64,000 nt of DNA from Methylomonas rivi (lineage in GTDB: Bacteria > Pseudomonadota > Gammaproteobacteria > Methylococcales > Methylomonadaceae): assembly GCF_024505165.1 (NCBI RefSeq), contig NZ_JANIBK010000001.1, forward strand, positions 62,001 through 126,000. The letters run 5' to 3'. The position numbers and the translations under genes were made by a program. Every line of letters begins with the position of its first letter. Position 1 is the first letter of the stretch. The notes under the pieces are model-generated. The model did not search any database. It was not told the DNA's origin and saw only the letters and a list, made by a program, of their open reading frames with translations. Of this stretch, positions 6,913-54,659 are shown in pieces.

Positions 6913-6922
6913 AACCGGCGGG

Positions 6923-7234: not shown

Positions 7235-7243
7235 GACAAGCTC

Positions 7244-8672: not shown

Positions 8673-8702
8673 TTATGCAGAAAAAGTCTTGCGGCGTACA
8701 AT
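8673..8702 (+). promoter_or_regulatory. Candidate sigma-70 promoter for msrB
   Basis: A good -10 (tacaat, 8697-8702) stands 18 bp after a weak -35 (ttatgc, 8673-8678), about 35 bp ahead of the msrB start. It lies in the 216-bp gap shared with the divergent sqr gene. Only the -10 is convincing. Confidence 0.35.
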
Positions 8703-8737
8703 AGCCTTCCTTGAAAGATGCAAACGGGAACATACCT

Positions 8738-10434: not shown

Positions 10435-10491
10435 CTTTAATACAAACTTCTACTATTCTTGTCTGCAGGTTTCTACTGATAAGGATATATT

Positions 10492-13417: not shown

Positions 13418-13425
13418 GAAACAGC

Positions 13426-15969: not shown

Positions 15970-16075
15970 TCTGGGTTCAAGGCACACAACCTAAGCGCTA
16001 TACACTCGTCATTAAGAAAGGAAACCAACCGCTCTTCAATCAAGACGAACAAAACCAAAAGAACGCCGGGAAATA

Positions 16076-16852
16076 TCAGTGATTCGAGATATCAACAAAA
16101 CCGTGCAAGCCGCGTTTTGATTCTACCGCCAACCAGTCGAGTAAGTATTGCAGTTCTTCGGTTTTTTGCAATTCATCCAGGCTTTTTTTATTTTTCAACA
16201 TTCGAAACGCATTGGATAACACCTTGTAATTTTCGCCGACAATCCCGGCCCGCCTTAAACCGACGATATTAAGCCGGTAATGCTTGGCCGGTCGGCCGCC
16301 GATCAGCATAAAGGGAATCACATCCATATTGATACCCGTTGTTCCCTGCACAATTGCATAAGAACCGATCCGGCAAAACTGATGCACAACCACGGCCCCG
16401 CCCATGAATACATTATTGCCAACCTCGACATGGCCGCCGATCGCTACATTATTGGCAAAAATAGTCTTATCGCCTACGCTGCAATCATGTGCGACGTGGC
16501 TATTATTCATGAAATAACAGCCTGAACCGATTTTGGTGGTCGCCGAGGGTTTGGTCGCCCGATGAGCGGTAAACCCTTCCCTGAAAGCATTGTTGTCCCC
16601 GATCTCCAGCCAGGATTCGGTTTGCGGATCGAAGCCCAAATCCTGCGGCAATCCGCCTAAAACCGCATGCGGGTGCAAAATATTGCTTTCGCCCATTTTT
16701 ACCCGCCCGTGCACGATAGCATGAGCGCCAATCCGGCAATTGGCGCCAATGACAGCGCCGTCCTCGATCACGGCAAATGGGCCCACGCTTACACCGGCAG
16801 CCAGTTGAGCATTAGGCGCCACATACGCTAAAGGATGAATAAGATTCGACAT
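16076..16852 (-). CDS. lpxA: Acyl-ACP:UDP-GlcNAc O-acyltransferase-like LpxA
   Basis: A 258-aa left-handed beta-helix acyltransferase. Hexapeptide repeats run through residues 1-190, with the LpxA catalytic-histidine context 'MNNSHVAHDCSVG' (compare the family 'MxxxHxAHDC') and 'VHQFCRIG', then the helical LpxA C-terminus ('NIVGLRRAGI'). LpxA starts lipid A synthesis by adding a hydroxyacyl chain to UDP-GlcNAc. Unusually it is not in an lpxD-fabZ-lpxA-lpxB cluster but 3 bp behind xerD, and the usual 'HRGT' is 'HRATK'. It may be a second, diverged LpxA paralogue. Confidence 0.82.
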   Translation of the reverse strand: MSNLIHPLAYVAPNAQLAAGVSVGPFAVIEDGAVIGANCRIGAHAIVHGRVKMGESNILHPHAVLGGLPQDLGFDPQTESWLEIGDNNAFREGFTAHRATKPSATTKIGSGCYFMNNSHVAHDCSVGDKTIFANNVAIGGHVEVGNNVFMGGAVVVHQFCRIGSYAIVQGTTGINMDVIPFMLIGGRPAKHYRLNIVGLRRAGIVGENYKVLSNAFRMLKNKKSLDELQKTEELQYLLDWLAVESKRGLHGFVDISNH

Positions 16853-22844: not shown

Positions 22845-25358
22845 TTAATTGATTGCTCTACCGGTCAACATTTGCCGCTTGATATCGATTGCTGCCTGAT
22901 GATCCGGTTTTTGAGACAAAATGAAGTCCAACATCATTTCGGCCCCGTCATAACTTTTACATTCGATATACAACATTGCCAGCTTGATTTGCGCCAGCGT
23001 ATCCGAAGGAAATTGACTCACGTAAGCGCTATAAGCGTCGATTGCATCCAGCATATCGCCTTGCAATCTTTGTATTTCGGCGTAAAAAGGCAAAAAAACC
23101 GGGTTCAATTTGGAAAGGCAATCCAAAGCCAAATACACATTATGGATATCATTGTGCTCGATGCCTATCCTGGCAATGCGTATCAAAGCATCCTCAAGCA
23201 AAATATCTCCATCCTCAATAATTTTTTGATAGCTATTTAAGGCAAGTTCCGTATCGCCCGCCAACTCAGCCAAATACCCTTTAATCAAATACCGATAAGG
23301 TTCCGCGGCTTGTTGCTGTTCATGCTTATCCAAGCTCAGCAGTAAATCCTGCAATTCTTCTAATTTGTTATGCTTGAACAGAAGGCCTGCCCGCTGCCTT
23401 ACAATAGTTAATTTACTCCGCGCCTTTATCCTTGCAAAATGCCGGGTATCTTTTTGGTTAAGAACTTCCTCGAATTCACGCTCAAATTCGCTGAATAAGG
23501 CCGACGTATCAGCGGAAATCGCCACATTCGGGTGCTTAATCCTCCACGCCTTCGCCCGGCCAAAACTTTTATCTTTTCGCCATTGTTCGAACAATAAATC
23601 AAAATCGGGATCGGCTTCATTTTCTTGCTGCCGAACAAGCACCCTTTGTATGGCATCCGCGATCAGCCGAGATAACTTCTTAGTCCCTTCATAATAGGCG
23701 TCGTAGTATATATTACCGAGTTGCCTGGCTTCCTCAAAAGTCCAATCTTCATCGTTAAAAGGCCTAACCACCTGTATAAACTGCCTAATACCGAATCGTT
23801 TCACCAATTTGGCGAAATGACGGTGCTGACGTTTGAATTTCTTTTCTATCTGATCCAGCTTTCTTTTATCTTTATAGTTTTCGAGCAGCCCGGAAGCATT
23901 GTACATAGTGTCGTTAATATGCCGGGCTTTCTCGGCCAATCGCTTGATCGCTTGAACCTGAAACTCGGCTCTTTTCAATTCCACCAATACATCCGTTAAA
24001 TAATCATCTCCCGAAGCGTAAGAAGATACTTTTGCATCAACTACCGACTTGGCATTAATGGAAGTTTCATCGAGTTTTATCTCCGAGAGCGGGATATATT
24101 CAACCCCCTCAATCCTGGCCGCCCCTAACGAGCCGTTAATAACCCGCCCTCCCGAACGGACTATTCTTCTGGCCTGCAAACTCAGCGTTTTGATCGCCTG
24201 GGCATAATCGTTACCGGTCGGCGCCAAAAATCCGCCATTGGTTTCCACTTGCAAGGAGGTAAGATTGAGTTTGGGGCCTGCCAACTGTTCATTACTGCCT
24301 TTGGCATGAGTAAAGCCGTCTCTAGTGAAACACAAGTCCACCCCTGCCAGAATTACGCGCTTGAAGCCTAAATCGTAGGCCACATTAAGCGCCGCATTGG
24401 TTACGGTAGGTCCGGCGCCACTCAAATTGGCCACATTCAACGGCGATTCCCAGGGTACGCGCGATCCAAGATACAGCATCAACCCTTGCCATTGATTCAG
24501 TAGTTTTGATGAGGCATGATAAGAACAAATAAAAACCGTCCGCGCCCCGAACCGAAACATTTCTTTACTGATGTCGAAACTAATCTCTTGCGGATCCACG
24601 GAAAAAACGAAATCCGGCTCAATACCCGCCGCCAATAATTGCCGAGATATTCTGGATACCGCAAAAACCACAAATTGTTCCCGGTGCAACCTAACCCAAG
24701 GCAACGCCTCATCTAATGACGGCCCCCCCGCCAAAATCACGACCGTTTGTCCGCCAAAGGCATGCTGGAGTAGCTTGGCCGGCAGCCTATTATCGGCAAC
24801 ATTTTTAATTTGCCGGTCAATAAATGCTTCCTGCCCAATCGCTGTATTATTTTCCCAATTCAATTGCGCCAAAGTTTCAACAATATTCCAGCTCAACTCC
24901 GCATATTCGTTTATGAAATCATCTTGAGCACAGAACGCATTAAAAGATCGCACGGCATTAATATAGAAGTAATCGGCTATTTTAAAGTTACGAATAGCCG
25001 AAGACCAATCTTGCCAGCTAATACACAATATGCGTTCATTTTGCTCTGCATGCGCAAGTAGGCCTTGTTCCCTTAGCACCGTCAAAACCGATTCCGGCTC
25101 GATAAATATATACCGAGAACCTTTTGGAATCGTTTTATTCCGCAAATATTTCGGCAACAACCCCGAGTCTGTCCCGACAATTACATATAAGGTATTTTCA
25201 TTAAACAAAACCTCGTCAAACTTTGCTTCAAATAAAGTTTTCGCGCTAACCTTATCGAAACTATGGCGATTTAAGTTAAATAAAAACTTATCGCCAAATG
25301 AGTTAACTGCTAATGGCCCAAGAATATGAGAACTTACCAAATCATTATTATCGTTCAT
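22845..25358 (-). CDS. Maf-type flagellin glycosyltransferase (DUF115)
   Basis: An 837-aa motility-associated factor. The central MAF/DUF115 domain is marked by 'VVILAGGPSLDEALPWV' (about residue 210), 'VFAVSRISRQLLAAGIEPDFVFSVDPQ' and 'GAGPTVTNAALNVAYDLGFKRVILAGVDL'. The C-terminal 200 residues form helical TPR-like repeats. Maf proteins are cytoplasmic and transfer nonulosonic acids such as pseudaminic acid from CMP to Ser/Thr of flagellin before export. It follows flagellin 1 by 21 bp, and the CMP-nonulosonate pathway lies at 44-53 kb. The sugar actually used is inferred from that operon. Confidence 0.88.
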   Translation of the reverse strand: MNDNNDLVSSHILGPLAVNSFGDKFLFNLNRHSFDKVSAKTLFEAKFDEVLFNENTLYVIVGTDSGLLPKYLRNKTIPKGSRYIFIEPESVLTVLREQGLLAHAEQNERILCISWQDWSSAIRNFKIADYFYINAVRSFNAFCAQDDFINEYAELSWNIVETLAQLNWENNTAIGQEAFIDRQIKNVADNRLPAKLLQHAFGGQTVVILAGGPSLDEALPWVRLHREQFVVFAVSRISRQLLAAGIEPDFVFSVDPQEISFDISKEMFRFGARTVFICSYHASSKLLNQWQGLMLYLGSRVPWESPLNVANLSGAGPTVTNAALNVAYDLGFKRVILAGVDLCFTRDGFTHAKGSNEQLAGPKLNLTSLQVETNGGFLAPTGNDYAQAIKTLSLQARRIVRSGGRVINGSLGAARIEGVEYIPLSEIKLDETSINAKSVVDAKVSSYASGDDYLTDVLVELKRAEFQVQAIKRLAEKARHINDTMYNASGLLENYKDKRKLDQIEKKFKRQHRHFAKLVKRFGIRQFIQVVRPFNDEDWTFEEARQLGNIYYDAYYEGTKKLSRLIADAIQRVLVRQQENEADPDFDLLFEQWRKDKSFGRAKAWRIKHPNVAISADTSALFSEFEREFEEVLNQKDTRHFARIKARSKLTIVRQRAGLLFKHNKLEELQDLLLSLDKHEQQQAAEPYRYLIKGYLAELAGDTELALNSYQKIIEDGDILLEDALIRIARIGIEHNDIHNVYLALDCLSKLNPVFLPFYAEIQRLQGDMLDAIDAYSAYVSQFPSDTLAQIKLAMLYIECKSYDGAEMMLDFILSQKPDHQAAIDIKRQMLTGRAIN

Positions 25359-25379: not shown

Positions 25380-26234
25380 TTATTGCAATAACCGCAAAAC
25401 GCCTTGAGTAGATTGGTTTGCTTGCGCCAACATCGCAGTACCCGCTTGTTGGAGAATTTGCGCCCTACTTAACTGGGCCGTTTCCGTGGCAAAGTCGGCA
25501 TCCATAATCCTTGAGCGCGCGGCGCTTTGATTTTCAATAGACGACTGCAAATTGGAAATTGTCGTGGTAAAACGGTTTTGAATAGCGCCCAGGGTAGCAC
25601 GAAAATTATCAATTTTCTCAATAGCCTTATCAATATGCGTAATGGCTGACATTACATTAGAGAAGGTTGCATTACTACCTATGGAAGCCAAACTCCCGAA
25701 CAATTGATTTACGCCAGACATATTTTCAAGATTGGAAATAGTGATGCTGATCTGATTATTGGCACTGGTATTCGGCCCCACCTGAAATATCGCATTTGAT
25801 AACGAGCCATTCAGAATTTTCTTGCCGTTAAACTCAGTATTTTCAATAATTCGATGAATCTCGTTACCGAGCTGCCTAAATTCGGTCTGCAATTTTTCCC
25901 GGTCCGCCGAACTGACGGAACCAAAGTTTGCCGCCTGAATGGCCAGGTCCCGCATCCGTTGTAAAGTTTCGGTGATGTTACCCATCCCCGCCTCGGCTGT
26001 CTGAGCCATGGAAATTCCGTCGTTGGCATTTCTCATTGCCACGGTCATACCCCGAATTTGAGAAGTCATCCGGTCGGCAATGGCCAATCCAGCCGCATCA
26101 TCCTTAGCGCTATTGACACGCAAACCCGAAGAAAGCCTCTCCATGGCGCTGCTCAGCGATTCATTTGTTCTGCTTAGCATTCGTTGGCTATTCAACGATG
26201 CAATATTGGTATTTATGACCATTGAAGATGGCAT
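25380..26234 (-). CDS. fliC: Flagellin 1
   Basis: A 284-aa flagellin with complete D0/D1 ends: 'VINTNIASLNSQRMLSRTNESLSSAMERLSSGLRVNSAKDDAAGLAIADRMTS'-type N-terminus (each part matching FliC) and 'LSRAQILQQAGTAMLAQANQSTQGVLRLLQ'-type C-terminus. The variable middle is short (about residues 165-205), so surface D2/D3 domains are essentially lacking. Ser/Thr/Asn-rich stretches there are possible glycosylation sites. Ribosome site 'gggaga'. It is followed by maf and yjfB-like genes. Unlike flagellin 2, no sigma-28 promoter was found upstream. Confidence 0.97.
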   Translation of the reverse strand: MPSSMVINTNIASLNSQRMLSRTNESLSSAMERLSSGLRVNSAKDDAAGLAIADRMTSQIRGMTVAMRNANDGISMAQTAEAGMGNITETLQRMRDLAIQAANFGSVSSADREKLQTEFRQLGNEIHRIIENTEFNGKKILNGSLSNAIFQVGPNTSANNQISITISNLENMSGVNQLFGSLASIGSNATFSNVMSAITHIDKAIEKIDNFRATLGAIQNRFTTTISNLQSSIENQSAARSRIMDADFATETAQLSRAQILQQAGTAMLAQANQSTQGVLRLLQ

Positions 26235-43205: not shown

Positions 43206-44054
43206 CTATCTAAGCAAACTAAGCACGGATTGCGTCGATTGGTTTGCCTGCGCCAACATCGCCGTACCCGCTTGCTGCAATATTTGCGACCGGCTCAAAT
43301 TGGAGGTTTCAACGGCAAAATCGGCATCCAATATTCTTGAACGAGCAGCGCTTTGGTTTTCGATAGAGGATTGTAAATTACCGATTGTGGTTGTAAACCG
43401 ATTTTGCACGGCACCCAATGTAGCACGAAAATCGTCGATTTTAGAAATCGCCGTATCAATAGTATTGATAGCGGACAATACGCCATCCGAAGTAGCAGCG
43501 CTACCTATGGATACCCCGCCCCCCGCGACGGCGCTAATACCGGAAACGCCTTGTAAATCGGAAACGGTAATCGAAATTTGGTTATTGGTGGAAGTCCCCG
43601 CACCCACTTGAAATATCGCGCCGACCAAACTGCCGTTCAGGATCTTTTTACCGTTGAATTCGGTGTTCTCTATGATCCTGTTGATCTCATCGCCGAGCTG
43701 TTTAAATTCGGTTTGCAGCTTTTGCCGGTCGGAATCCGACACCGCGCCTCTGTTGGCCGCTTGCACGCCCAGATCGCGCATCCGTTGCAGGGTCTCGGTA
43801 ATCGAACCCATCGCGCTTTCCGCGGTTTGCGCCATGGAAATACCGTCGTTTGCATTACGCATAGCCACTGTCATACCGCGGATTTGAGAAGTCATTCTGT
43901 CCGCAATCGCCAAACCCGCGGCATCGTCTTTTGCAGAGTTTACCCGCAAGCCCGAAGACAATCTCTCCATCGAGGTTTTTAACGACATATTCGTTCTATC
44001 TAGCATACGTTGGCTATTCAACGATGCAACATTTGTATTGATTACCATTGCCAT
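43206..44054 (-). CDS. fliC: Flagellin 2
   Basis: A 282-aa flagellin very like flagellin 1 in the D0/D1 ends ('VINTNVASLNSQRML', 'SGLRVNSAKDDAAGLAIADRM', 'FNGKKILNGSL', ending 'QANQSTQSVLSLLR'). It differs mostly in the short middle part ('VSGISAVAGGGVSIGSAATSDGVL'), which is rich in Ser/Thr and Gly. The ATG at 44054 has 'ggaggg' upstream; 44069 would be an extended GTG start. A near-consensus sigma-28 promoter lies 90 bp upstream and a terminator directly downstream. Confidence 0.97.
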   Translation of the reverse strand: MAMVINTNVASLNSQRMLDRTNMSLKTSMERLSSGLRVNSAKDDAAGLAIADRMTSQIRGMTVAMRNANDGISMAQTAESAMGSITETLQRMRDLGVQAANRGAVSDSDRQKLQTEFKQLGDEINRIIENTEFNGKKILNGSLVGAIFQVGAGTSTNNQISITVSDLQGVSGISAVAGGGVSIGSAATSDGVLSAINTIDTAISKIDDFRATLGAVQNRFTTTIGNLQSSIENQSAARSRILDADFAVETSNLSRSQILQQAGTAMLAQANQSTQSVLSLLR

Positions 44055-44143
44055 GATGTCACCCTCCACGCTGTTTCAGACTTACAACATTCGAAACAGT
44101 GCATTTCTTGATTGATTAAAAGAAGTTTTTTAACTCAACCTAT

Positions 44144-44310: not shown

Positions 44311-45354
44311 TTATTCGAAAAGGTCCCATGTTAAAGGTGTGCCCTTCTTCACAGTTTTAGCCACCTTACGCCCCAAAAGCAATTCATAAAACTTTGGCGC
44401 CAGCCCATGTCCGGGACGGATACGCCGCAAATTTAAAGGCGTAAGCACATCTCCCGCAGCCAAGTCTTCGGCAATATAAAGCGATCGCCGACGTAATCTG
44501 GCCTTTTCTTCCGCCGCCGTAGGCCCGTATTTGATGCAGCCCAAAGCCTGCCAGGCGCGCTCGGTTTCTGCAACCAAACCGGCAAATTCATTCGGCTCCA
44601 GCGAAAAAGCCGCATCAACGCCTCCCTCGGCCCGGTCAAGCGTGAAATGTTTTTCGATCACGCTGGCGCCAAAAGCCACCGCCGCCACCGCCGCGCCGAT
44701 TCCCAGGGTATGGTCGGACAGGCCGACTTCGCAGCCGAACAATTCCCGCATATGGGCAATGGTGCGCAAATTGGTATTTTCCGGGGAAGCCGGATACGTG
44801 CTGGTGCATTTGAACAAAACCAGATCTTTGCACCCCGCCGCGCGGGCTGTATCGACAGCATCGGCAATTTCGGCGATTGAGGCCATGCCGGTCGAGATTA
44901 ACAGCGGCTTTCCGGTGCCGGCCGCCTTGCGAATTAACGGCAAATCGACGCATTCGAAAGAGGCAATCTTGTAGCAAGGTACATTTAACGTCTCCAGAAA
45001 ATCCACCGCCGTTTCATCGAAAGGCGAACTAAAGCAGTGCAGACCGCGTTCCCTGGCCCGGGCCATGATGGGCGCGTGCCACTCCCAAGGGGTATAAGCT
45101 TGTTGATACAGCGCATGCAACGCTTGCCCCTTCCACAGAGAGTTTGCATCGCCGATCACGAATTCCCCCTCCGTTACATCCAGCGTCATGGTATCGGCCG
45201 TATAGGTCTGCAGCTTAATCGCATGCGCGCCGGCATTGGCCGCCGCATCGACGATGGCCAATGCCCGCTCGAGCGATTGGTTGTGATTGCCGGACATTTC
45301 GGCAATCATGAACGGCGGCTGATCTTTACCTATGCGTTGATTGGAAATTTGCAT
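44311..45354 (-). CDS. pseI: Pseudaminic acid synthase PseI
   Basis: A 347-aa NeuB-family enzyme that condenses phosphoenolpyruvate with 2,4-diamino-2,4,6-trideoxy-L-altrose derivatives to form the nonulosonic acid. The TIM barrel shows 'MIAEMSGNHNQSLERALAIVDAAANAGAHAIKLQTYT', 'SFECVDLPLIR', 'STGMAS', 'CTSTYPA', 'GLSDHTLG' and 'IEKHFTLDR'. A C-terminal SAF (antifreeze-like) domain follows ('RRSLYIAEDLAAGDVLT', 'GHGLAPKF'). 'MSGNHN' and 'DHTLG' fit PseI better than NeuB. Last gene of the Pse operon. Confidence 0.92.
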   Translation of the reverse strand: MQISNQRIGKDQPPFMIAEMSGNHNQSLERALAIVDAAANAGAHAIKLQTYTADTMTLDVTEGEFVIGDANSLWKGQALHALYQQAYTPWEWHAPIMARARERGLHCFSSPFDETAVDFLETLNVPCYKIASFECVDLPLIRKAAGTGKPLLISTGMASIAEIADAVDTARAAGCKDLVLFKCTSTYPASPENTNLRTIAHMRELFGCEVGLSDHTLGIGAAVAAVAFGASVIEKHFTLDRAEGGVDAAFSLEPNEFAGLVAETERAWQALGCIKYGPTAAEEKARLRRRSLYIAEDLAAGDVLTPLNLRRIRPGHGLAPKFYELLLGRKVAKTVKKGTPLTWDLFE

Positions 45355-45396
45355 TCACGGTCCGGAAGAGTGTATTAAAAACGTGTTTTGACCCGC

Positions 45397-46614
45397 TTAA
45401 GCGTCAACAAAGCCAATGTTTATTTTCGACATGGCAAGACGGCTATTATTACGCGCCTCGTCCCTATCCTTGCCCTTGGCGATTATCGCGCCGAATCGGG
45501 CCGCGGAACTATGCAGGGAAGGCAGCATCCGCCCGGCCTCGGCATGGATGTCCACGGACAATATTCCGTTCGCGCTTTTTGCGTCATCTATGCCCTCGAT
45601 CTCAACGACCGGCCTGTCCGTGACAGGATAATCCAGCTCGGTCATAAATCGCACCGATAAAGCAGGGACCGGCTCTATCGCGGCATGGTCGGCCAGCGAA
45701 AACGCGCAGCCCATGGCAAGCTGAATCGCCACATCTATCATATCGATGCCAGACCGATACAAGCCCACTTCCCGCATAAAACCGCCCGGAATTCTGGCGG
45801 CAATTTCGATGACTTGCGGGCCATCCTCGCCGACCACCACCTGGGGATAGGCAATGCCGTTTTCCAGGCCGATCGCCCGAATCGCCAAAACCGACGCGGC
45901 CTCGACCGCACCGGCTTGCTCGGCCGATATGTCGGGCGGGAACACATGCTCTACCGCGATACCGAAGTGCGGCGAAGCCGCCGTAATCCGGTTCGATAAA
46001 GACAAAATCGTGACCTGCCCCGTCACGACAGCGGCAGTGACATTGATTTCCGGCCCCGCATAAAACGTTTCGACGATGGCGTGACCGTCCGTTGAATATT
46101 TGATCGCCTCATCGAAGCACTGGCACAGCGACGGCCAATCGACTACTTTTTCAACGCCACGCTGGCCGGACGAATTGCTGGGCTTGATCACCAGCGGATA
46201 GCCGTATTGGTTGGCGAATTTTTCAGCCTCCGCCAAGGTGTTTACCGGCTCGCTGACCGGGCTGGGCACGGCAAACGCTTTAAATGCCGCGCGCATGGCG
46301 TTTTTATTGGTGGCTTTCAACGCCGTGTCTTCCGACATCCCCGGCAGCCCCAACATGCGAGCTATTTTGGCCACAATGGGCACGGCCACCTCGGAACCCA
46401 GCGTCATAATGCCGTCTATTTGGTATTGCTTGGCAACCTTTAAATTACCGTCGAAATCGGCCGTACTTACTACTTCGGCGTAATCGGCGTAGGCAAAACC
46501 CGGCGCATGCTTATTAATATCCGTAACCACCGTTTCATACCCCAATTTCCGGGCATTGATAATGGCAGGTACTTGCTCGCGGCCGGCGCCAATGATCATT
46601 AGTTTTCGTTTCAT
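45397..46614 (-). CDS. ATP-grasp carboxylate-amine ligase of the Pse operon
   Basis: A 405-aa ATP-grasp protein. N-terminal Rossmann-like part 'KLMIIGAGREQVPAIINARKLGYETVVTDI'; central ATP-binding 'YPLVIKPSNSSGQRGVEKV' (about residue 140); metal ligands near 'QVIEIAARIPGG' (about residue 270); then a C-terminal closing domain. The architecture is that of PurK/PurT/BacD-like ligases, which activate a carboxylate as acyl phosphate and pass it to an amine. Its start overlaps the ComA-ComB stop by 4 bp (ATGA), so the two are made together. Inference: it couples sulfolactate to the free amino group of a Pse precursor. Confidence 0.85.
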   Translation of the reverse strand: MKRKLMIIGAGREQVPAIINARKLGYETVVTDINKHAPGFAYADYAEVVSTADFDGNLKVAKQYQIDGIMTLGSEVAVPIVAKIARMLGLPGMSEDTALKATNKNAMRAAFKAFAVPSPVSEPVNTLAEAEKFANQYGYPLVIKPSNSSGQRGVEKVVDWPSLCQCFDEAIKYSTDGHAIVETFYAGPEINVTAAVVTGQVTILSLSNRITAASPHFGIAVEHVFPPDISAEQAGAVEAASVLAIRAIGLENGIAYPQVVVGEDGPQVIEIAARIPGGFMREVGLYRSGIDMIDVAIQLAMGCAFSLADHAAIEPVPALSVRFMTELDYPVTDRPVVEIEGIDDAKSANGILSVDIHAEAGRMLPSLHSSAARFGAIIAKGKDRDEARNNSRLAMSKINIGFVDA

Positions 46615-48092
46615 GGAAACATTTCAGCGCTATATTTGATTAGTCGCTTGCCGTCGAAAATCGGCACGGCATCGGACATATCGATTTTCGAACAAAAAAC
46701 CACATCGTCCATATAGCCCAAGGACACCAGATTGAGGCCGCTATCGCTTTCCAGAAAGTCTTTTTCCAACTCGTCGCTATAGAAAGGCTCCAAAACGCCG
46801 CGCGGCGTCACATTGCCGATTTTTTTCATGATTTCGGTTACCGCCGCCCTGTCTTCAATCGCCGGCTGATTGTTTCTACCGGCGGCAAGCAATGTGATGC
46901 TTTTCCCTAATTTGGCCGCAATCTCAATCGCCGCCTGGGCTACCGCGCTACAGTTGGTCAGCGCCCCCACCAAAACCACGCTGTCTTTACCTGTGGCGCT
47001 CATAATGCACTCGGTGCCGTTGGTGGTGGATATGACCACCGACCGGCCCTTGACGGCATCCGCGCCGATTAACAACGGACTATTGCCGTAATCCGCATTG
47101 GGCAATTTGGAGCCGCCGCGCTCGCCTATGGTGACTTCGCCGACCAAATCGGTGGCACTGGTGACCGGAATGACCTCCTTGGCGCCCTTGGCGATGCACT
47201 GCTCGATGGTGGTACTGGCCCGCAAGGCGTCCACCACCACCACCACGTCGCCGCGTCTTTGCGCCCTGATCGCCCCGCCGACCCCCAATTCCAGAAACAC
47301 CCGGCGGCTATCCTTGCAAAAGTCTCTGAAGGTATCCGCTCTCAGGCCCCGCCGCATGGACTCCAGGCTCAACACATCAAGCGGCGATACGTTGCCGATA
47401 TTGACGTTGGAACCGATATTCTGCAATAGCCAGACTTGCTGTTCCTTGGCGGGTGCTTCCCACAAAACGCTATCCGGATCGACATTGCGGAACAACTCGT
47501 AGGCCAACTCGGAATTAATCCGCCCATCCGCATTGAATATTCCCACCGTACCGGACTCCCTGGCTTCCATGATCACCTTGCTGACACCGCTTTGAATATC
47601 CTGCTTAATTTCTTCGACCCTGTGCCGGTAAGTCATTTTTCGGTCTTCTTCGGGCAATTTTTTCCCGACTTCGGAGATCGTGTAAAAGCCTTTGGCAACC
47701 GCCTTTTTGATAATCGTCTGTTTGTCGCTTATCGTCATGGCGGGGTGTATGCCGTTAGACACCTCTATCGTATTGAAACCCAAATCTTTTAATAAATCGA
47801 ACATGGCCTCGACATCGGCAAACTCGAATATCGATTCGATAAAGGTTCCGCCGGGGCAGACATTGATGCCCGCGTCCCGATAAATTTTAATTTTTTTGCT
47901 CAACACATCGCCGGGGTATAAGGCGCACGTCCCCCAACCCAATTTAATCGTATCTATATAGCCTGCCGCGGTCTCGACCAAATCGATGGCGCCGTGGATG
48001 CCCAACGATTTATCCAACACCATGGTCAACCCGGTGCTTCTCGGCTTGGCGGAGCCTTGAGGCAGCCCCATCTTCTTTAAGATTTCATTCAT
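46611..48092 (-). CDS. comA/comB: Fused phosphosulfolactate synthase (ComA) and phosphosulfolactate phosphatase (ComB)
   Basis: A 493-aa fusion. Residues about 15-255 match ComA, which adds sulfite to phosphoenolpyruvate: 'GLTMVLDKSLG', 'DTIKLGWGT', 'CPGGTFIE', 'IEVSNG', 'TISEVGKKLPEEDRKMT', 'IMEARESGTVGIF', 'WEAPAKEQQVW' and 'ESMRRGLRADTF'. Residues about 262-490 match ComB, which removes the phosphate: 'VVVVDALRASTTIEQ', 'IGERGG', 'DYGNSP', 'STTNGTECI', 'LLAAGRNN', 'EDRAA' and 'DDVVFC'. Together they would make 3-sulfolactate from PEP and sulfite. These are coenzyme M enzymes in methanogens, but no ComC/ComDE is present here. Their setting in a nonulosonate operon suggests a sugar substituent. 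Confidence 0.9.
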   Translation of the reverse strand: MNEILKKMGLPQGSAKPRSTGLTMVLDKSLGIHGAIDLVETAAGYIDTIKLGWGTCALYPGDVLSKKIKIYRDAGINVCPGGTFIESIFEFADVEAMFDLLKDLGFNTIEVSNGIHPAMTISDKQTIIKKAVAKGFYTISEVGKKLPEEDRKMTYRHRVEEIKQDIQSGVSKVIMEARESGTVGIFNADGRINSELAYELFRNVDPDSVLWEAPAKEQQVWLLQNIGSNVNIGNVSPLDVLSLESMRRGLRADTFRDFCKDSRRVFLELGVGGAIRAQRRGDVVVVVDALRASTTIEQCIAKGAKEVIPVTSATDLVGEVTIGERGGSKLPNADYGNSPLLIGADAVKGRSVVISTTNGTECIMSATGKDSVVLVGALTNCSAVAQAAIEIAAKLGKSITLLAAGRNNQPAIEDRAAVTEIMKKIGNVTPRGVLEPFYSDELEKDFLESDSGLNLVSLGYMDDVVFCSKIDMSDAVPIFDGKRLIKYSAEMFP

Positions 48093-48105
48093 GGAATATG
48101 CCTGT

Positions 48106-49020
48106 TTATAAATCCGACTTTTTATGGAACAACCCGATCAAATTGCGGCCCAGCCCGAGATCGGCAAACGCCTCATACAATGTAACGGCCTTATCGATCG
48201 AGATATCGTGAATGAGGTTTTCAACCCGCATTCTGGCTTTATGAACCGGCTTGCCGGCTCCGGGATGCATAACGTAATTGGTGTTGTCATTAAAAAGCGC
48301 CAAATCGATGGGATAGTCGCAAATCAGCTTAAACCGCGCATAACCGGCCTCGTCGCATAACGCCGTTAACCCTTCGGCGTTAAAATAGGAAATATGATCC
48401 GGCTTGACCACCCAGAAAGGCCTATCGATGCAGCCGGCATGCATCAACTCCCGCTGCAACCTGGAAAAATCGTTGGGCACCTCGATAATCAACACGCCCT
48501 TGTCCGCCAATAGATGCCGGATTTTTTGCAAAACGGCCAGCGGATCCAGCACATGTTCTAAAATATTGTCCAGCAAGATTAAATCGAAACTCGCCGCTTC
48601 CGCGACCAGCCTATCGATAGAATCTCCAATATCGCCGATGAGCAAATTTTCCAACATCTCCGGATTATGCACGGTGCATCCGTAACTGCTGTAATCCAGG
48701 CCCGAGGCCTCCCAACCGGCTTCGGCAAAAAAGCGCATCGCAAACCCCTCGCCCGCGCCGACATCCAGAAATCTCTTCACCCCGTTGCCTGCCGGATTAC
48801 CGCTATATTGCTCGGCGAGATAGGCTTTTTGCTCCAGTTTTTTCCGCTTCCAAAGCAAATCTTCCGCACTGTATTCGTGCTGGTGCATCTGGATCGATTG
48901 TTGATAATACTTATTCGCGTAATAATCCTTCAACTCGGTTTCGGACGGCTTGGAGACCAGTTCATGAAAACCGTATTTATTTTTTTCAATGCCGTATGCA
49001 GTTACGCTGAAACTTGTCAT
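48106..49020 (-). CDS. SAM-dependent methyltransferase of the Pse operon
   Basis: A 304-aa class I methyltransferase. Motif I 'RFLDVGAGEGFAMRFFAEAGW' and the following 'ASGLDYSSYG' bind SAM; 'FDLILLDNILEHVLDPLAVLQKIRHLLADKGVLIIEVPNDF' is the usual second half. The N-terminal 70 residues ('ELKDYYANKYYQQS') resemble those of sugar- and glycan-modifying methyltransferases. It lies 13 bp before the ComA-ComB gene and could methylate either the sulfolactate hydroxyl or the nonulosonic acid. Substrate unknown. Confidence 0.85.
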   Translation of the reverse strand: MTSFSVTAYGIEKNKYGFHELVSKPSETELKDYYANKYYQQSIQMHQHEYSAEDLLWKRKKLEQKAYLAEQYSGNPAGNGVKRFLDVGAGEGFAMRFFAEAGWEASGLDYSSYGCTVHNPEMLENLLIGDIGDSIDRLVAEAASFDLILLDNILEHVLDPLAVLQKIRHLLADKGVLIIEVPNDFSRLQRELMHAGCIDRPFWVVKPDHISYFNAEGLTALCDEAGYARFKLICDYPIDLALFNDNTNYVMHPGAGKPVHKARMRVENLIHDISIDKAVTLYEAFADLGLGRNLIGLFHKKSDL

Positions 49021-49109
49021 GATTAAAATTTGCCGAGTTAAATAAAATCGATTCGTCCAAAAGCATCAAGCAACACGCCGTTTTCTTGATCGCAACGGCC
49101 GCGCAAAAA

Positions 49110-50150
49110 TTATTCCTTCCTAATCATACCGATAATTTTGCTTGCCAGGCGTTGCGCGCCTTTACCGTCAACCCAAGCGCCCGCCGCCTCGACCATTTCC
49201 CGCCTAAGCCTATCGGTGGCGGCCACATTCGATACCGCGCGCAACAAATCGCCGGCGCCGACCTCATGCAATGCCCCCAAAAAAACCGCCGCCCCGGCGT
49301 CGGCAAAAGCCCGCGCCGGCCGAATCTGGTTATCGGCAATGGCGATTAAAACCATCGGCAACCCGCAACTGGCCGCTTCGTAAATACTGGTGCCTCCCGC
49401 CATAACCGCCAGATCGCAACCCGCCATTATTGCCGCGACGTTTTCGGGATCGACCGACAACGATACCCGCCCCCGGCCATGTGTCTCCACCCAATCGCAC
49501 AATTGCGGATTGCGCGGGTTATGGCCGCCTGAAATCACCACGAAGCGCCAATTAGCCGGCACATTTTCGATTAAGGATGTCAAAGCAAATTCGATGCCAC
49601 CCCTATCATCACCGCCGCCAAACGCAACCAAAACCTGTTCGATCGATCGGCCGGCCGGCCGTAATGCAGCGACTGGGGGGAATTCGGCGCGCAAGACGGC
49701 GTACCTTGGCCCCAGCAACAGTTGAGCGCCGGGATTATGCAGCACATCGCGATAGTCATCGGCCCGCGCGGCCGGATTGGCGTTAACCACCAAATCGGCC
49801 CATAAGGGTTTTTGGGCGGTGCCGTCAAACTGCAACCAATGCAGTCCTTTCGCGCTCAAGAATTTCTGATAGCCCGCATCAATGCGGTAATCGTCCAAAA
49901 CGGCGAAGCCGGCGGATTTATCCCTAACTATCTCGGTAAAACGCGCGGCATCCCATTCGGCGGAGACCCATTCCCCAGCCTCTATCCAGTCCTCGATAAA
50001 TTCCGCATCTTCTTCAGTGGCATAAGATTTCGGCGGGCCGACCATCACGCAGGACTCGCCTTGCCGTTTCAGCGCGTAGGCCAGCGCCCGGCAACGGACC
50101 AGATGCCCCAAGCCCACCTCGGGGCTGGCGTTACAGCGAAAAATTATCAT
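49110..50150 (-). CDS. pseG: UDP-sugar hydrolase PseG
   Basis: A 346-aa GT-B-like hydrolase that releases UDP from the acylated diamino-altrose before PseI acts. It starts with the family motif 'IIFRCNASPEVGLGHLVRCRALAYAL', contains 'AVLDDYRIDAGYQKFL', 'VLVAFGGGDDRGGIEFAL' and 'CDLAVMAGGTSIYEAASCGLPMVLIAIADNQ'. It lies 4 bp after pseF. Length is normal; no acetyltransferase (PseH) domain is fused, as happens in some species. Confidence 0.92.
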   Translation of the reverse strand: MIIFRCNASPEVGLGHLVRCRALAYALKRQGESCVMVGPPKSYATEEDAEFIEDWIEAGEWVSAEWDAARFTEIVRDKSAGFAVLDDYRIDAGYQKFLSAKGLHWLQFDGTAQKPLWADLVVNANPAARADDYRDVLHNPGAQLLLGPRYAVLRAEFPPVAALRPAGRSIEQVLVAFGGGDDRGGIEFALTSLIENVPANWRFVVISGGHNPRNPQLCDWVETHGRGRVSLSVDPENVAAIMAGCDLAVMAGGTSIYEAASCGLPMVLIAIADNQIRPARAFADAGAAVFLGALHEVGAGDLLRAVSNVAATDRLRREMVEAAGAWVDGKGAQRLASKIIGMIRKE

Positions 50151-50154
50151 GCAA

Positions 50155-50889
50155 TTAACCGCCCCGCTTCCCGGTTTCGGGCAAGTTTCCCCAGGCTCTG
50201 AACATCAACTCGGCCCGCAGCCAGTCGTCTTCGGTATCGATATCCTGTACCTGAAAATGCGGCAGAATCAATGGCGCGGCGTCCTCGGAAAACGTCGGAA
50301 TGCCTTGCATGATCGCCTCGGCTTTCGCCCAATAGAACTGGCCGGCATCGTGGTAGGCGGGTTCAAGGTCCTGGGAGCGGGTCATTCTGTGCTCGGGCTG
50401 GAACATGGCCACGCCATGGGTTTCCGTTATGCGTAGCGCGCGTTGAATCGGGTAAGAAAAACCGGTCACCGTGAAGGCCAGCGACTTGCCGCTTTCAACC
50501 ATCAAAGCCAAGCCATCGCTCAAATCCGTGGCTTTAATAAACGGCGCCGTGGCATAAATCGTACAGACGTAAGCGATATTGCCGTACGCCGCCATTGCCC
50601 ATTCCAAAGCGTGTTTGGTAACCGCGCGGGTGCCGACATAATCGTTGGACAATTCCAGCGGCCGCATGAAAGGCACTTCCGCGCCCCATGTTTTGGCCGC
50701 CTCGGCAATTTCGGCGTCGTCGGTGGAGACGATAATGTGATCGAATAAGCCGGAAGTCTGCGCGGCGCCTATCGACCAGGCGATCATGGGTTTCCCGCAA
50801 AAATCCTTGACGTTTTTACGCGGGATACGCTTACTGCCGCCGCGGGCGGGAATTACGGCAATTTTCACTGATTCTTCTTTTTGGCTCAT
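50155..50889 (-). CDS. pseF: CMP-pseudaminic acid cytidylyltransferase PseF
   Basis: A 244-aa nucleotidyltransferase that activates the finished nonulosonic acid with CTP. It has the signature 'IAVIPARGGSKRIPRKNVKDFCGKPMIAWSI' and 'DHIIVSTDDAEIAEAAKTWGAEVPFMRP'. The internal 'TRAVTKHALEWAM' and 'VCTIYATAPFIKATDL' fit PseF. The N-terminal 'MSQKEESV' is short and could be trimmed. It lies 20 bp after pseC. Confidence 0.93.
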   Translation of the reverse strand: MSQKEESVKIAVIPARGGSKRIPRKNVKDFCGKPMIAWSIGAAQTSGLFDHIIVSTDDAEIAEAAKTWGAEVPFMRPLELSNDYVGTRAVTKHALEWAMAAYGNIAYVCTIYATAPFIKATDLSDGLALMVESGKSLAFTVTGFSYPIQRALRITETHGVAMFQPEHRMTRSQDLEPAYHDAGQFYWAKAEAIMQGIPTFSEDAAPLILPHFQVQDIDTEDDWLRAELMFRAWGNLPETGKRGG

Positions 50890-50909
50890 GTTGCGCGGGA
50901 CACGCCTTG

Positions 50910-52064
50910 CTACACACTAGCCCGCAATGTTGCGATGACATGCAATTGCTGCGCCTCGGACAAATCCGGATAGAGCGGCAGGGTAAGGGCTTCGGCGTAA
51001 TAGCGTTCGGCTTGCGGGAAATCGCCCGGTTTAAAGCCGCGTTGTCGATAGTACGGCTGCAAATGCACCGGGATGTAATGCAGATTGACGCCTATCCCGG
51101 CGTCGCGCAGACGGCAAAACACCTCGCGATGCGGCATTTTACAATCCGAATTTTGCAAGCGAATCACGAATAGGTGAAATGCCGAATAACAATCGTCCGG
51201 CTGGCTCTGCGGCACCACCGGCAAACCGGCCAAGTATTGCCGGTAAAACCCGGCCAGCCGGTGGCGGCGGGCGACAAAGGCATCCAGGCGCTTGAGCTGG
51301 CTTAAGCCCAATGCCGCTTGCAGATCGGTCATGCGGTAATTGAAGCCCAGTTCGATTTGCTGGTAATACCAGGGGCCGTCCGCCTCATGGGTCATTTCCG
51401 CCGCTTCGCGGGTAATACCGTGGCTGCGCAGCAAGGTCATACGCTTGGCCAGCAGGGAATCATTAGTTAACGCCATTCCGCCTTCGCCGGTGGTGATGAT
51501 CTTGACCGGATGAAAGCTGAAAACGCTAATGTCGGAGTAACGGCAGTTGCCTATCGGCTGATCTCGATATTTACCGCCTATGGCATGAGAAGCATCTTCC
51601 AGGATGCGAAAACCGTAGCGTTTACTCAAGCGATGAATCTCGGCCATGTCGCAGGGCAACCCGCACAGATGCACAGGAATCACCACCTTGGGCAGGCGGC
51701 CGGATTGCTCGGCACGATGTAATTTTTCCGCCAAGGCTTGCACACTGATATTGCAGGTCGAGGGATCGATATCGACAAAATCGACTTCCGCGCCGCAATA
51801 CAAGGCGCAATTGGCGCTGGCCACGAAAGTGATGGGGCTGGTCCAGACGAAATCGCCGGCCCGCACGCCCAAGGCCAGACAAGCCAGATGCAGCGCGGAC
51901 GTGGCGCTATTGACCGCCACGGCATGACCGGCGCCGCAATAGGCGGCCACGGCGTTTTCGAACGCGGGTACGGCAGGACCCTGCGTCAGATAATCGGATT
52001 TCAATACCTCGACGACGGCCTGAATATCGGCATCGGAAATCTGTTGCCGTCCGTAAGGGATCAT
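50910..52064 (-). CDS. pseC: UDP-4-keto-sugar aminotransferase PseC
   Basis: A 384-aa PLP-dependent DegT/DnrJ/EryC1 aminotransferase that installs the 4-amino group on UDP-4-keto-L-AltNAc. It opens 'IPYGRQQISDADIQAVVEVLKSDYLTQGPAVPAFE'-like sequence, typical of PseC, with 'ILEDASHAIGGKY' and the PLP lysine in 'SVFSFHPVKIITTGEGGMA'. The amine it makes is the one normally acetylated by PseH. A strong ribosome site (ggagg) precedes the ATG, 15 bp after pseB. Confidence 0.94.
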   Translation of the reverse strand: MIPYGRQQISDADIQAVVEVLKSDYLTQGPAVPAFENAVAAYCGAGHAVAVNSATSALHLACLALGVRAGDFVWTSPITFVASANCALYCGAEVDFVDIDPSTCNISVQALAEKLHRAEQSGRLPKVVIPVHLCGLPCDMAEIHRLSKRYGFRILEDASHAIGGKYRDQPIGNCRYSDISVFSFHPVKIITTGEGGMALTNDSLLAKRMTLLRSHGITREAAEMTHEADGPWYYQQIELGFNYRMTDLQAALGLSQLKRLDAFVARRHRLAGFYRQYLAGLPVVPQSQPDDCYSAFHLFVIRLQNSDCKMPHREVFCRLRDAGIGVNLHYIPVHLQPYYRQRGFKPGDFPQAERYYAEALTLPLYPDLSEAQQLHVIATLRASV

Positions 52065-52079
52065 AACAGCCTCCGCGGT

Positions 52080-53069
52080 TTAGGCATCGACCACGAAGTT
52101 ATCGATCAAGGCTCGTAATTCGTCCACGCCGAGAAACCGTTCATTGCTGCCGCTGTCGTAGCGGAAACCCGGCTCGACTTTTTGCGCACTGGTGCGGGCG
52201 CAATAGTTTTTCATATTGTATTTGGCGCCCGCCGGTAAAATCGCGAAATAAGGCCCTAAATCCACGGTATTGAAACTGTCGCTTTCGGTGATCATTTCCT
52301 CGTGAATTTTTTCGCCGGGCCGCACGCCGACGATTTTATGTTCGCATTCCGGGCCTATGGCCATGGCCAGATCGGTAATCCGGTAGGAAGGAATTTTCGG
52401 CACCAGCACTTCGCCGCCCCAGGCATTCTCTATCGCCCACAGCACCATTTCCACCCCTTCCAGCAGGCTGATATTGAAGCGGGTCATCTCCGGATCGGTA
52501 ATGGGCAACACACCGGTTTTACGCTGTTCCAGAAAAAACGGGATCACCGAACCCCGGCTACCCATGACATTGCCGTAGCGCACCACACTAAAACGGATAT
52601 CCCGGGAACCGGCAATATTGTTGGCCGCCACGAACAGTTTATCCGAACATAACTTGGTGGCGCCATACAGATTGATCGGCGCCGCCGCTTTATCGGTGGA
52701 CAGCGCCACCACCCGCTGCACACCGGTATCCAGGCAGCCTTCTATCAGGTTTTGCGCACCTAGCACATTGGTTTTGATGCATTCGAACGGATTGTATTCC
52801 GCCGCCGGCACCTGCTTCAGCGCGGCGGCATGGATGACGACATCGATATCTTCCAGAGCCCGCTTCAGCCGGCTCTGGTCGCGGACGTCACCGAGGAAAT
52901 AACGCATGCACTTTTGATTGAACACTTGGCGCATTTCATATTGTTTAAGCTCGTCCCGGGAAAAAATCACCAGCCGTTTCGGGCTATAACGTTCCAGAAT
53001 CAACTGAGTGCATTTCTTGCCGAACGATCCGGTGCCGCCGGTGATCAATATGTTTTTTCCGTTTAACAT
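52080..53069 (-). CDS. pseB: UDP-GlcNAc 4,6-dehydratase (5-epimerising) PseB
   Basis: A 329-aa extended SDR enzyme that begins pseudaminic acid synthesis from UDP-GlcNAc. NAD(P) motif 'ILITGGTGSFGKKCTQ', the modified catalytic set 'ALSTDKAAAPINLYGATKLCSDKLF' (Thr-Asp-Lys and YxxxK) and 'VRYGNVMGSRGSVIPFF' are PseB/FlaA1 hallmarks. It is the promoter-proximal gene of the eight-gene minus-strand operon. The gaps onward are 15, 20, 4, 89, 13, -4 and 42 bp. Confidence 0.95.
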   Translation of the reverse strand: MLNGKNILITGGTGSFGKKCTQLILERYSPKRLVIFSRDELKQYEMRQVFNQKCMRYFLGDVRDQSRLKRALEDIDVVIHAAALKQVPAAEYNPFECIKTNVLGAQNLIEGCLDTGVQRVVALSTDKAAAPINLYGATKLCSDKLFVAANNIAGSRDIRFSVVRYGNVMGSRGSVIPFFLEQRKTGVLPITDPEMTRFNISLLEGVEMVLWAIENAWGGEVLVPKIPSYRITDLAMAIGPECEHKIVGVRPGEKIHEEMITESDSFNTVDLGPYFAILPAGAKYNMKNYCARTSAQKVEPGFRYDSGSNERFLGVDELRALIDNFVVDA

Positions 53070-53231: not shown

Positions 53232-54659
53232 TTAGGGAATCAAAACCCGAATCTCCGGAAAAAGCCCCGCCAAAGCCTGCCGCAGCACCTTTTTGGCGGC
53301 ATCGTCGCCATGAATCAAACGAATCTCGGCGGGTTTTTTCCGCATACCCTTTACAAAGCGTAGCAAAGAATTCCTGTCTGCATGCGCCGAATAGCCGCTT
53401 AAGGCATAAACGCCGGCATTAATCGAATAACGCCGCCCGTCCAGCTCCACATAACCGTGTTTCGGCCCGAATTGCTGAATATCCCGGCCCGGCGTGCCTG
53501 CCGCCTGATATCCCACCAATAAAATATCGGTGCGCTTATCTTCTATCAAGGCCTTCAAATAATTGACGATACGCCCACCTGCACACATGCCGCCGGCGGC
53601 GATCACAATACAAGGCTTGGCGGTTTTTTGCAGATACGACACCGCCGCCAGATGATCTTGATGGCTATCGACGGTGGTAAGTTGCTCGAATGCCAACGGA
53701 TGCCGGCCCGCGCGCAACCTGGCCTTGGCTTCCGCATCCCAGTAGGGTTTAAGCTGTTTATAGACTTCGGTAAAACGGCTGGCCAGCGGCGAATCGACGA
53801 TGATTTCCATGTCCCGCCACAACAAACCCTTGGCCACCGCCTCGGTTTTATGGCGATGAATGATGTCTTCCAGTTCGTACAGCAATTCCTGGGTGCGGCC
53901 TATGCTGAAGGCCGGAATCAAAATCACCCCGCTGTTTTGCAGGCAGCGGCCGATCAACTGCTGTAACTGGGCCTGCCGCTGTTTGCGATTCTCGTGCAAA
54001 CGATCGCCATAGGTGCTTTCCAACACCAACACATCGGCTTGATAGGGCGATTTCGGCGCCGGCAGCAGCGGCGTGTACGGCCCGCCCAAATCGCCGGAAA
54101 ACACGATGCGTTGTTTTTGCTTGCCCGCCGTCACATCGCACTCGATATAGGCCGAACCCAAAATATGCCCGGCCGGATTGAATTTGACCCGCAACGCACT
54201 GCCGCAATCCGCCGCCAAAGCCACGGCCCGCCACTGGGCATAAGGCACGGCAACGATGCGGCTTTTGATCAATTCGATAAAGGGCTCGATCACCTGCCGG
54301 TCTTTACTGATGCCCACTGCCAGCGCATCTTCCAGCACCAGCGGCAACAACTGCGCGGTCGGCTCGGAACAGAAAATCGGCCCGCGAAACCCCGCCGCCA
54401 GCAGATACGGAATCCGCCCCACATGATCAATATGGCAATGCGTCACCAACAACGCCCGCACCTTATCCAGGGCAAAATCGATAGCCAATTGATTGGCCCC
54501 GGCACCCGCGCCGGACACTTCCGCCCCCTGAAACAAACCGCAATCGATCAACACCGAATTGCCCGCATCGACAAGCAACTCGTGGCAGGAACCGGTGACA
54601 CCGTCGACGGCACCGTGGTGTTTTATAGCGGGATAAGCTGAATCGACCATGCCCGGCAT
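53232..54659 (-). CDS. Beta-CASP metallo-beta-lactamase-fold nuclease
   Basis: A 475-aa protein of the RNA-processing MBL family. Zinc motifs: 'LLVTHCHIDHVGRIPYLL' (HxHxDH) near residue 75, 'PAGHILGSAYIE' and 'VFSGDLGG'. The beta-CASP insert contains 'IPAFSIGRTQELLYEL' and 'IIVDSPLA', and the late His motif is 'LSGYSAHADRNSLL'. Bacterial members act as RNA exo/endonucleases; the exact substrate is unknown. It begins directly after the Uma2-family gene's stop, so the two share a transcript. Confidence 0.88.
   Translation of the reverse strand: MPGMVDSAYPAIKHHGAVDGVTGSCHELLVDAGNSVLIDCGLFQGAEVSGAGAGANQLAIDFALDKVRALLVTHCHIDHVGRIPYLLAAGFRGPIFCSEPTAQLLPLVLEDALAVGISKDRQVIEPFIELIKSRIVAVPYAQWRAVALAADCGSALRVKFNPAGHILGSAYIECDVTAGKQKQRIVFSGDLGGPYTPLLPAPKSPYQADVLVLESTYGDRLHENRKQRQAQLQQLIGRCLQNSGVILIPAFSIGRTQELLYELEDIIHRHKTEAVAKGLLWRDMEIIVDSPLASRFTEVYKQLKPYWDAEAKARLRAGRHPLAFEQLTTVDSHQDHLAAVSYLQKTAKPCIVIAAGGMCAGGRIVNYLKALIEDKRTDILLVGYQAAGTPGRDIQQFGPKHGYVELDGRRYSINAGVYALSGYSAHADRNSLLRFVKGMRKKPAEIRLIHGDDAAKKVLRQALAGLFPEIRVLIP

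Follow-up and report, generated by a model that had tools for sequence, protein, structure and literature searches.

An eight-gene run on the minus strand of a 64,000-nucleotide stretch of Methylomonas rivi DNA (positions 62,001 to 126,000 of contig NZ_JANIBK010000001.1; hereafter the window) is probably a pseudaminic acid (Pse) operon with a changed N-acylation step, in which a sulfolactyl group takes the place of acetyl and the O-methylated product is carried on flagellin. The run, at 44311-53069, combines five Pse genes with a methyltransferase, a fused ComA-ComB protein and an ATP-grasp ligase. Sequence comparison establishes the gene identities, their layout, the conservation of the set as a module and the lack of a recognisable PseH. 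An earlier sequence-only reading had proposed that sulfolactate replaces acetate on the C4 amine, and this is supported as a genomic prediction by the lack of a PseH match over the cut-off in all eight genomes that carry the module, by the conservation of the module, by the PseG-PseH fusions found next to the corresponding flagellin genes in two sister species and by the predicted ligase fold.

The operon and its predicted product

The genome around the window comprises 4.5 Mb in 382 contigs. Curated gene identity was taken from NCBIfam equivalogs, each with its own cut-off, and domains were assigned by Pfam gathering score. The eight genes are as follows.

52080..53069, minus strand: pseB, UDP-GlcNAc 4,6-dehydratase (inverting); TIGR03589, 529.8 bits, cut-off 407.75
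50910..52064, minus strand: pseC, 4-aminotransferase, which makes the 4-amine that is the usual target of PseH; TIGR03588, 573.5 bits, cut-off 423.5
50155..50889, minus strand: pseF, CMP-Pse synthetase; TIGR03584, 315.2 bits, cut-off 205.7
49110..50150, minus strand: pseG, UDP-sugar hydrolase, lacking the GNAT (PseH) domain to which it is fused in some sister species; TIGR03590, 170.6 bits, cut-off 153.55; unmatched by the PseH model
48106..49020, minus strand: S-adenosylmethionine-dependent methyltransferase, class I; Methyltransf_23, E 9e-20
46611..48092, minus strand: fused ComA-ComB, phosphosulfolactate synthase and phosphatase; PF02679 and PF04029
45397..46614, minus strand: ATP-grasp carboxylate-amine ligase; ATP-grasp Pfams and PF18603 (LAL_C2)
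44311..45354, minus strand: pseI, Pse synthase (phosphoenolpyruvate (PEP) condensation); TIGR03586, 495.5 bits, cut-off 340.25

All eight open reading frames (ORFs) lie where the sequence-only reading had placed them, and five exceed the cut-off of a Pse equivalog. The intergenic gaps, in order from pseB to pseI, are 15, 20, 4, 89, 13, -4 and 42 bp; the 4-bp overlap joins ComA-ComB to the ligase, in line with the suggestion that the two are co-translated. The operon has a G+C fraction of 0.49-0.58, and promoter and terminator scans gave counts of 7 against 8.3 and 15 against 13.1 in shuffled sequence, respectively, both within the shuffle spread.

In the proposed pathway, PseB and PseC would produce UDP-4-amino-4,6-dideoxy-AltNAc, whose 4-amine would be the natural acceptor because it is left free without PseH. 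ComA would add sulfite to PEP and ComB would remove the phosphate, yielding (R)-3-sulfolactate; 3-sulfolactate is glycerate with the 3-hydroxyl exchanged for a sulfonate. The ligase would convert the sulfolactate carboxylate to an acyl phosphate and then to an amide on the 4-amine (N7 of Pse), replacing PseH, and PseG, PseI and PseF would complete the route to CMP-Pse5Ac7(N-3-sulfolactyl). The methyltransferase would probably O-methylate the acyl group, and a Maf protein would transfer the modified Pse to flagellin. The computed mass of the predicted residue (C14H22N2O11S) is 426.094 Da, or 440.110 Da when O-methylated, with oxonium ions of 427.10 and 441.12, respectively; plain Pse5Ac7Ac would have 316.127 Da. 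Acylation before PseG is the simplest timing; a later step on free Pse or CMP-Pse is also possible and is hinted at by the Shewanella sfmE mutant described below. From the gene set we infer the substrates, the acceptor amine, this timing, the methylation site and the flagellin target.

The proposed acceptor and transferase, as well as a second flagellin, are encoded in the same window.

43206..44069, minus strand: flagellin, the proposed acceptor, 241 bp beyond pseI; flagellin NCBIfam matches
22845..25358, minus strand: Maf-type (MptE-like) protein, the proposed nonulosonic acid transferase; PF01973, E 7e-43
25380..26234, minus strand: second flagellin, adjoining the Maf-type gene; PF00669 and PF00700

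Flagellin and Maf genes had been named as giving the sugar a destination. The flagellin part stands, with two genes, and the Maf part stands for one gene, which matches PF01973 (MptE-like), a family that includes Maf proteins. Beyond pseI, the flagellin is followed by FlaG and by two ORFs read as FliD and FliS; these two names, like those of the legionaminic-type cluster and the coenzyme M-type lyases mentioned below, are tentative and in part given by eye. On the other side, a beta-CASP metallo-hydrolase (53232-54659) adjoins pseB and has the same position in loci L063, L064 and L066 (L denotes a fetched locus stretch and G a genome; M. lenta is G014, and L106 duplicates L064). Further along, at 61040-62947, a polysaccharide deacetylase plus GHL13 protein is presumably PgaB-like.

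A recurrent module without PseH

The module, namely PseC, PseF, PseG, PseI, the methyltransferase, fused ComA-ComB and the ATP-grasp ligase (usually with PseB), was found in eight genomes: three of Methylomonas, three in the Hydrogenovibrio order and two of Halothiobacillaceae type. The count includes the window's own genome. ComAB and the ligase are adjacent in all eight loci, and a methyltransferase homolog is present in every module genome, the copy in L108 being cut by the contig end. Chance gene neighbourhood, considered as an explanation, was rejected on the strength of this recurrence. The patchy presence of the module in three lineages suggests that it moved between them by transfer.

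Several searches contributed to this count. Some ComA or ComB match was seen in 18 of 369 genomes of the class, with one fused ComA-ComB at 55% besides that of the window (G367); G135 gave a 30% match over both Com domains, with an internal stop and without the module. All eight homologs are present in G367 in a rearranged order, PseB, PseC, PseF and PseG on one strand and methyltransferase, PseI, ComAB and ligase on the other; ORFs resembling FliD and FliS lie beside them, as does a Maf-type gene. A contig scan for ComA yielded 27 loci, with the module in M. lenta, Hydrogenovibrio sp. UBA650 and one Halothiobacillaceae metagenome-assembled genome (MAG); the fetched stretches of the other 24 contained no pse genes, methyltransferase or ligase. 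When the ligase was used as query, 3 of 237 genomes of the window's own family matched at 81% or more and 7 distantly, at 27-32% (E 1e-30). The order of G367 gave an ATP-grasp match in 26 of 27 genomes, with E below 1e-90 in two (G367 and G470) and 1e-13 or weaker in the rest. In the order of the Hydrogenovibrio genome, three of the 62 genomes matched, which added G695 and G700, and a phylum sample gave 5 of 398, namely the own genome and four distant matches. G466 and G467 are MAG records; G470, 64% complete, has its ligase at the L108 coordinates and was taken to be the same genome as G467. Four of the module genomes (G000, G013, G014 and G367) have a stated completeness, 99.97-100%; the remaining four have none stated.

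L186 (G695) and L187 carry PseC, PseF, a methylase, PseG, the methyltransferase, ComAB, the ligase, PseI, a Maf-like protein and flagellins. A PF01973 protein lies near flagellin in the window and in L099, and ORFs resembling the L099 protein occur in L108 (51%) and in L186 and L187 (22-25%). Gaps in the module count against the proposal: the L186 stretch showed no PseB, L107 starts within pseC (and ends in pseI), and PseG of L099 and L108 falls below its cut-off (119.7 and 126.0 against 153.55).

The link to ComA is specific. Among 43 fetched ComA loci (window excluded, L106 dropped, neighbour genes called at E 1e-10), PseC, PseF, PseG, PseI, the methyltransferase and the ligase accompany all seven ComA proteins with at least 53% identity, the window being the eighth such locus, whereas PseF, PseI, the methyltransferase or the ligase accompanies none of the 36 with at most 45%, four of which are contigs shorter than 6 kb. 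One of these distant loci, L104, does hold PseB- and PseC-like genes at 25 and 37%. A quick tree with 43 rows, from which L106 and L132 were omitted, places the eight pse-type ComA proteins together on one side of a branch, whose support is 96 in the Shimodaira-Hasegawa-like approximate likelihood ratio test.

PseH itself is missing from operon and genome as far as profile search shows. The sequence-only reading held that every Pse step except PseH is present in the operon, and the five equivalogs indeed pass while PseH has no match there. In the own genome, nothing exceeded the cut-off of TIGR03585 (PseH), the best score being 25.3 bits over part of the model; two stretches with such weak matches were read and rejected, one as a general GNAT protein by eye and the other as lying inside a longer unnamed frame. 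The counter-case of a pseH elsewhere in the genome found no match over the cut-off in any of the eight module genomes (own, G013, G014, G367, G466, G467, G695 and G700), where the best score was 30.5 bits, again partial (G013).

Two observations count against the loss of N-acetylation. The PseG-PseH fusions of sister species also score below the cut-off (46-72 against 93.1 bits), and because these true PseH domains do so, the cut-off alone is no proof of absence; they are set apart by matching along most of the model and by standing beside pse genes. In addition, the own genome has a second nonulosonic acid cluster on contig C19 (L197 6781-17946), legionaminic-like by eye, with PseB-, PseC-, PseI- and PseF-like genes (28-36%) and a 209-aa acyltransferase-like protein (L197 8975-9604), PglD/LegH-like by eye, which could in principle acetylate the Pse intermediate. 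Normal Pse5Ac7Ac would then be made with PseH activity from elsewhere, while ComAB and the ligase make a separate sulfonated product. We consider this improbable: M. lenta has a single PseI-model match at E <=0.001, the module tracks the pse genes in all eight genomes, and pseI stands between the methyltransferase and comAB in the Halothiobacillaceae-type loci.

Sister species show what else can occupy this flagellar site. PseI exceeds its cut-off in 10 of 37 Methylomonas genomes, and fused ComA-ComB is present in three of the 37 at 94% identity, with which the ligase search agrees; these three share the window's gene order beside fliC (L063, L064). G017 (L071) and G026 (L066), on the other hand, have a PseG-PseH fusion of 500-520 aa beside the same fliC-flaG-fliD-fliS, and no module methyltransferase, ComAB or window-type ligase was seen in their stretches. 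The sites match imperfectly, with four extra genes between fliC and pseI in G026, where the beta-CASP gene beyond pseB is shared, and with no pseB or pseC seen in the fetched stretch of G017. PseG-PseH is likewise present in G011 (L070) and G020 (L068), whose fetched stretches hold no flagellin. Since sister loci have PseG-PseH, formyltransferase-like or other ATP-grasp sets instead, what varies at the flagellin-side pse locus appears to be N-acylation. The PseG of G002 (L067 6382-8151) has a C-terminal part that is weakly formyltransferase-like (24.1 bits, gathering score 26.1), which suggests N-formyl Pse. G035 (L069 6043-11513) has PseG, a methyltransferase 51% identical to that of the window, a short-chain dehydrogenase/reductase (SDR), a phosphoesterase, a different ATP-grasp protein and then PseI, perhaps for another acid at the same N-acylation step.

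ComA-ComB and the ligase

A single 493-aa ORF encodes both the ComA domain (PF02679, E 5e-82) and the ComB domain (PF04029, E 7e-42). According to PMC5695019, ComA condenses PEP with sulfite, and dephosphorylation by ComB then yields (R)-sulfolactate. Several results weigh against assigning these activities, and the use of their product by the ligase, to the window proteins. ComA scores just under the archaeal equivalog TIGR03849 (275.9 against a cut-off of 280) and ComB well under TIGR00298 (126.3 against 175.05). PurT, PurK and biotin carboxylases have the same fold as the ligase (Z about 30-35), so that the fold names the superfamily and not the substrate, and the ligase could use another acid. 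Moreover, Q258 of the window-type ligases is D in seven of nine distant relatives and E in the L-amino acid ligase BL00235 (3vot), although Q at such a metal site serves in carbamoyl phosphate synthetase. The Com scores would be explained if a drifted ComA-ComB made a different phosphate-free hydroxyacid for the ligase, but this is very unlikely: window-type ComA is still 30-45% identical to the more distant ComA proteins that were fetched, its K145 falls opposite K137 in the alignment with 1qwg, a ComA of solved structure, and all eight module proteins preserve two ComB stretches, D-x-L-R-A and T-N-G.

It is also highly improbable that the fusion is a source of coenzyme M or of some other soluble sulfonate, and a mere neighbour in the pse operon. 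ComA does start coenzyme M synthesis (PMC5695019). Other ComA genes of the order and class adjoin two lyase-like genes, the layout of bacterial coenzyme M synthesis. However, the pse-type ComA proteins form a separate group, and coenzyme M-type lyase-like genes are found in none of their seven loci, against both genes in 6 of the 36 other loci. No ComC, ComD or ComE was seen among the eight genes of the operon, a local search rather than a genome-wide one, and coenzyme M was rejected as the principal explanation with neither lyase nor ComC-E genes adjoining. The six loci with both lyase-like genes, L073, L074, L075, L076, L078 and L103, are from other gammaproteobacteria, three of them in the window's own family, and presumably represent bacterial coenzyme M synthesis.

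Two further ComA loci have a different setting. In L102 (G330, 1677-7706), ComA (35%) stands with a 3'-phosphoadenosine 5'-phosphosulfate reductase-type protein, a glyoxalase, a histidine phosphatase, a PIG-L deacetylase and a PylC-like ATP-grasp protein. The next ORF, judged by eye, is asparagine-synthase-like, and the locus is possibly a second sulfolactyl-sugar system. In L104 (G396, 1050-16689), ComA (36%) belongs to a cluster resembling those for surface polysaccharides, which also encodes an AMP-binding ligase, a histidine phosphatase, a glyoxalase, a formyltransferase and a WbuX amidotransferase; in the tree, this ComA branches together with the L102 protein (85).

The AlphaFold2 model of the ligase has a predicted local distance difference test score (pLDDT) of 94.7 and a predicted template modelling score of 0.91. 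Its best match in the PDB is BL00235 (3vot; Z 39.9, root-mean-square deviation 2.6, 380 aligned), and a GAR-synthetase-like protein, PurT, RizA and BacD are the further closest folds. With BL00235, RizA and BacD the predicted fold is shared over nearly the whole length, including the ATP-grasp core; unlike those enzymes, the window ligase would have a nucleotide amino sugar as acceptor and a sulfonated hydroxyacid as donor. H216, R281 and Q258 are present in all eight window-type ligases, whereas among the nine distant relatives R281 and H216 occur in none and Q258 in one; these residues are candidates for sulfonate or metal binding. The distant relatives (25-28% identity) were examined in nine loci. 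Five of them (26-28% identity), in L188, L189, L190, L193 and L195, lie on the flagellin side together with PseB, PseC and a short NeuB-like gene. L194 shows this gene set too, though no flagellin within the stretch that was fetched, and L191, L192 and L196 show other surroundings. By analogy with these loci and with the sfm operon described below, our reading is that the ligase family may acylate the free amine of Pse with acids, a claim that the sfm authors do not make in the available text. The methyltransferase model (pLDDT 88.5) matches many class I methyltransferases and names no substrate.

Relation to known systems and significance

PseB, PseC, PseG, PseI and PseF and the flagellin-side location are common to the window and the CMP-Pse5Ac7Ac pathway of Campylobacter and Helicobacter (PseBCHGIF); the window differs in having no PseH that was found and in adding the methyltransferase, ComA-ComB and the ATP-grasp ligase. 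Another similar system is the sfmABCDE operon of Shewanella oneidensis, which includes the ATP-grasp protein SO_3265; the consulted part of the report describes flagellin carrying mono-N-acetyl Pse (274 Da) and a methylated outer group of 236-264 Da (PMC3765264). As in that account, the window combines an ATP-grasp ligase, a methyltransferase and a NeuB-family gene at a flagellin operon with no clear PseH. Where sfm has a thiamine pyrophosphate (TPP) enzyme and an SDR, with no sulfur reported in the available text, the window has ComA-ComB. The likeness was drawn from sfm-like loci of other genomes and not from the sfmE sequence itself; three such loci, L188 (G027), L189 (G604) and L190 (G601), occur in the window's own family beside fliC-flaG-fliD-fliS. 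An acetolactate-synthase-like TPP enzyme and an SDR adjoin the distant ligase in L188 and are not among the eight genes of the operon.

In C. jejuni, a dimethylglyceroyl Pse of m/z 391 is associated with Cj1295 (PMC3068675). A likeness to this sugar had been suggested; the computed oxonium ion of 391.17 agrees with the reported value, and m/z 391 fits replacement of one acetyl. Both there and in our proposal, a three-carbon hydroxyacid with O-methyl groups takes the place of acetyl; the C. jejuni system, as far as that source goes, has no sulfonate and relies on Cj1295 rather than on ComA-ComB with an ATP-grasp protein. The domains of archaeal coenzyme M ComA and ComB are both shared with the window, where they are fused, in a glycan operon and without ComC, ComD or ComE among the eight genes.

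A sulfonated flagellar glycan with an ATP-grasp gene is already known from C. difficile, so that sulfolactyl Pse would be a new variant. Type B flagellin of that species bears a taurine-capped, sulfonated peptidylamido-glycan for which the ATP-grasp gene CDR20291_0245 is needed (PMC5207245, PMC5207246, in the portions available). An N-acyl link to an amino sugar is a further point in common, whereas taurine is there attached via Ala-Gly to Fuc3N, with no nonulosonic acid and with no ComA-ComB noted in those portions. Pfam and NCBIfam name the eight window proteins otherwise than the C. difficile glycan genes, a comparison of names and not of the genes directly. Searches of open-access papers in PMC turned up no sulfolactyl nonulosonic acid.

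The two systems raise an alternative that we rate as unlikely, though it deserves more weight than the others, in which sulfolactate is placed on Pse otherwise than as a simple N7 amide: linked via an amino-acid spacer or by an ester bond, attached to N5, or carried by an outer residue that joins the completed Pse. The taurinyl-Ala-Gly chain on the Fuc3N amine in C. difficile would be a precedent, and in Shewanella the flagellin mass shift of the sfmE (ATP-grasp) mutant falls slightly short of that of the sfmA-D mutants, so that the ligase there may act late. Against this, inspection of the module genes of the eight loci revealed neither another ligase nor an amino-acid enzyme, a deacetylase or an additional glycosyltransferase; the sole extra there is a TIGR03587-type methylase in L186, L187 and L107 (scanned in L186 only, the L107 copy being read by eye). 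PseH is missing, and the Methylomonas module sits where sister species have PseG-PseH, which favours sulfolactate in place of acetate on the 4-amine.

We tentatively extend the proposal, at somewhat less than even confidence, to a plug-in scheme of which O-methylated N-(3-sulfolactyl) Pse on flagella would be one case. An exchangeable acid-making unit (ComA-ComB, acetolactate synthase with SDR, or perhaps phosphoesterase with SDR) would feed an ATP-grasp ligase that replaces PseH, and ComA may have been recruited a second time to surface-polysaccharide clusters of other gammaproteobacteria, which would make N-sulfolactyl sugars a wider class of glycan.

If the proposed pathway is true, a bacterial phosphosulfolactate synthase and phosphatase would gain a role outside coenzyme M, in building a sulfonated sialic-acid-like sugar. 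The diversity of N-acyl groups on pseudaminic acid would gain a route that can be tested, and this route predicts a role for the unexplained sfm-type ligases. The module carriers of the Hydrogenovibrio order and of Halothiobacillaceae type have a sulfur-oxidiser lifestyle, and the flagella of methanotrophs and sulfur oxidisers would bear a permanent, strong negative charge. Sulfite metabolism would thereby be tied to surface glycans, and these glycans would be a hidden source of sulfolactate for sulfonate-degrading microbes.

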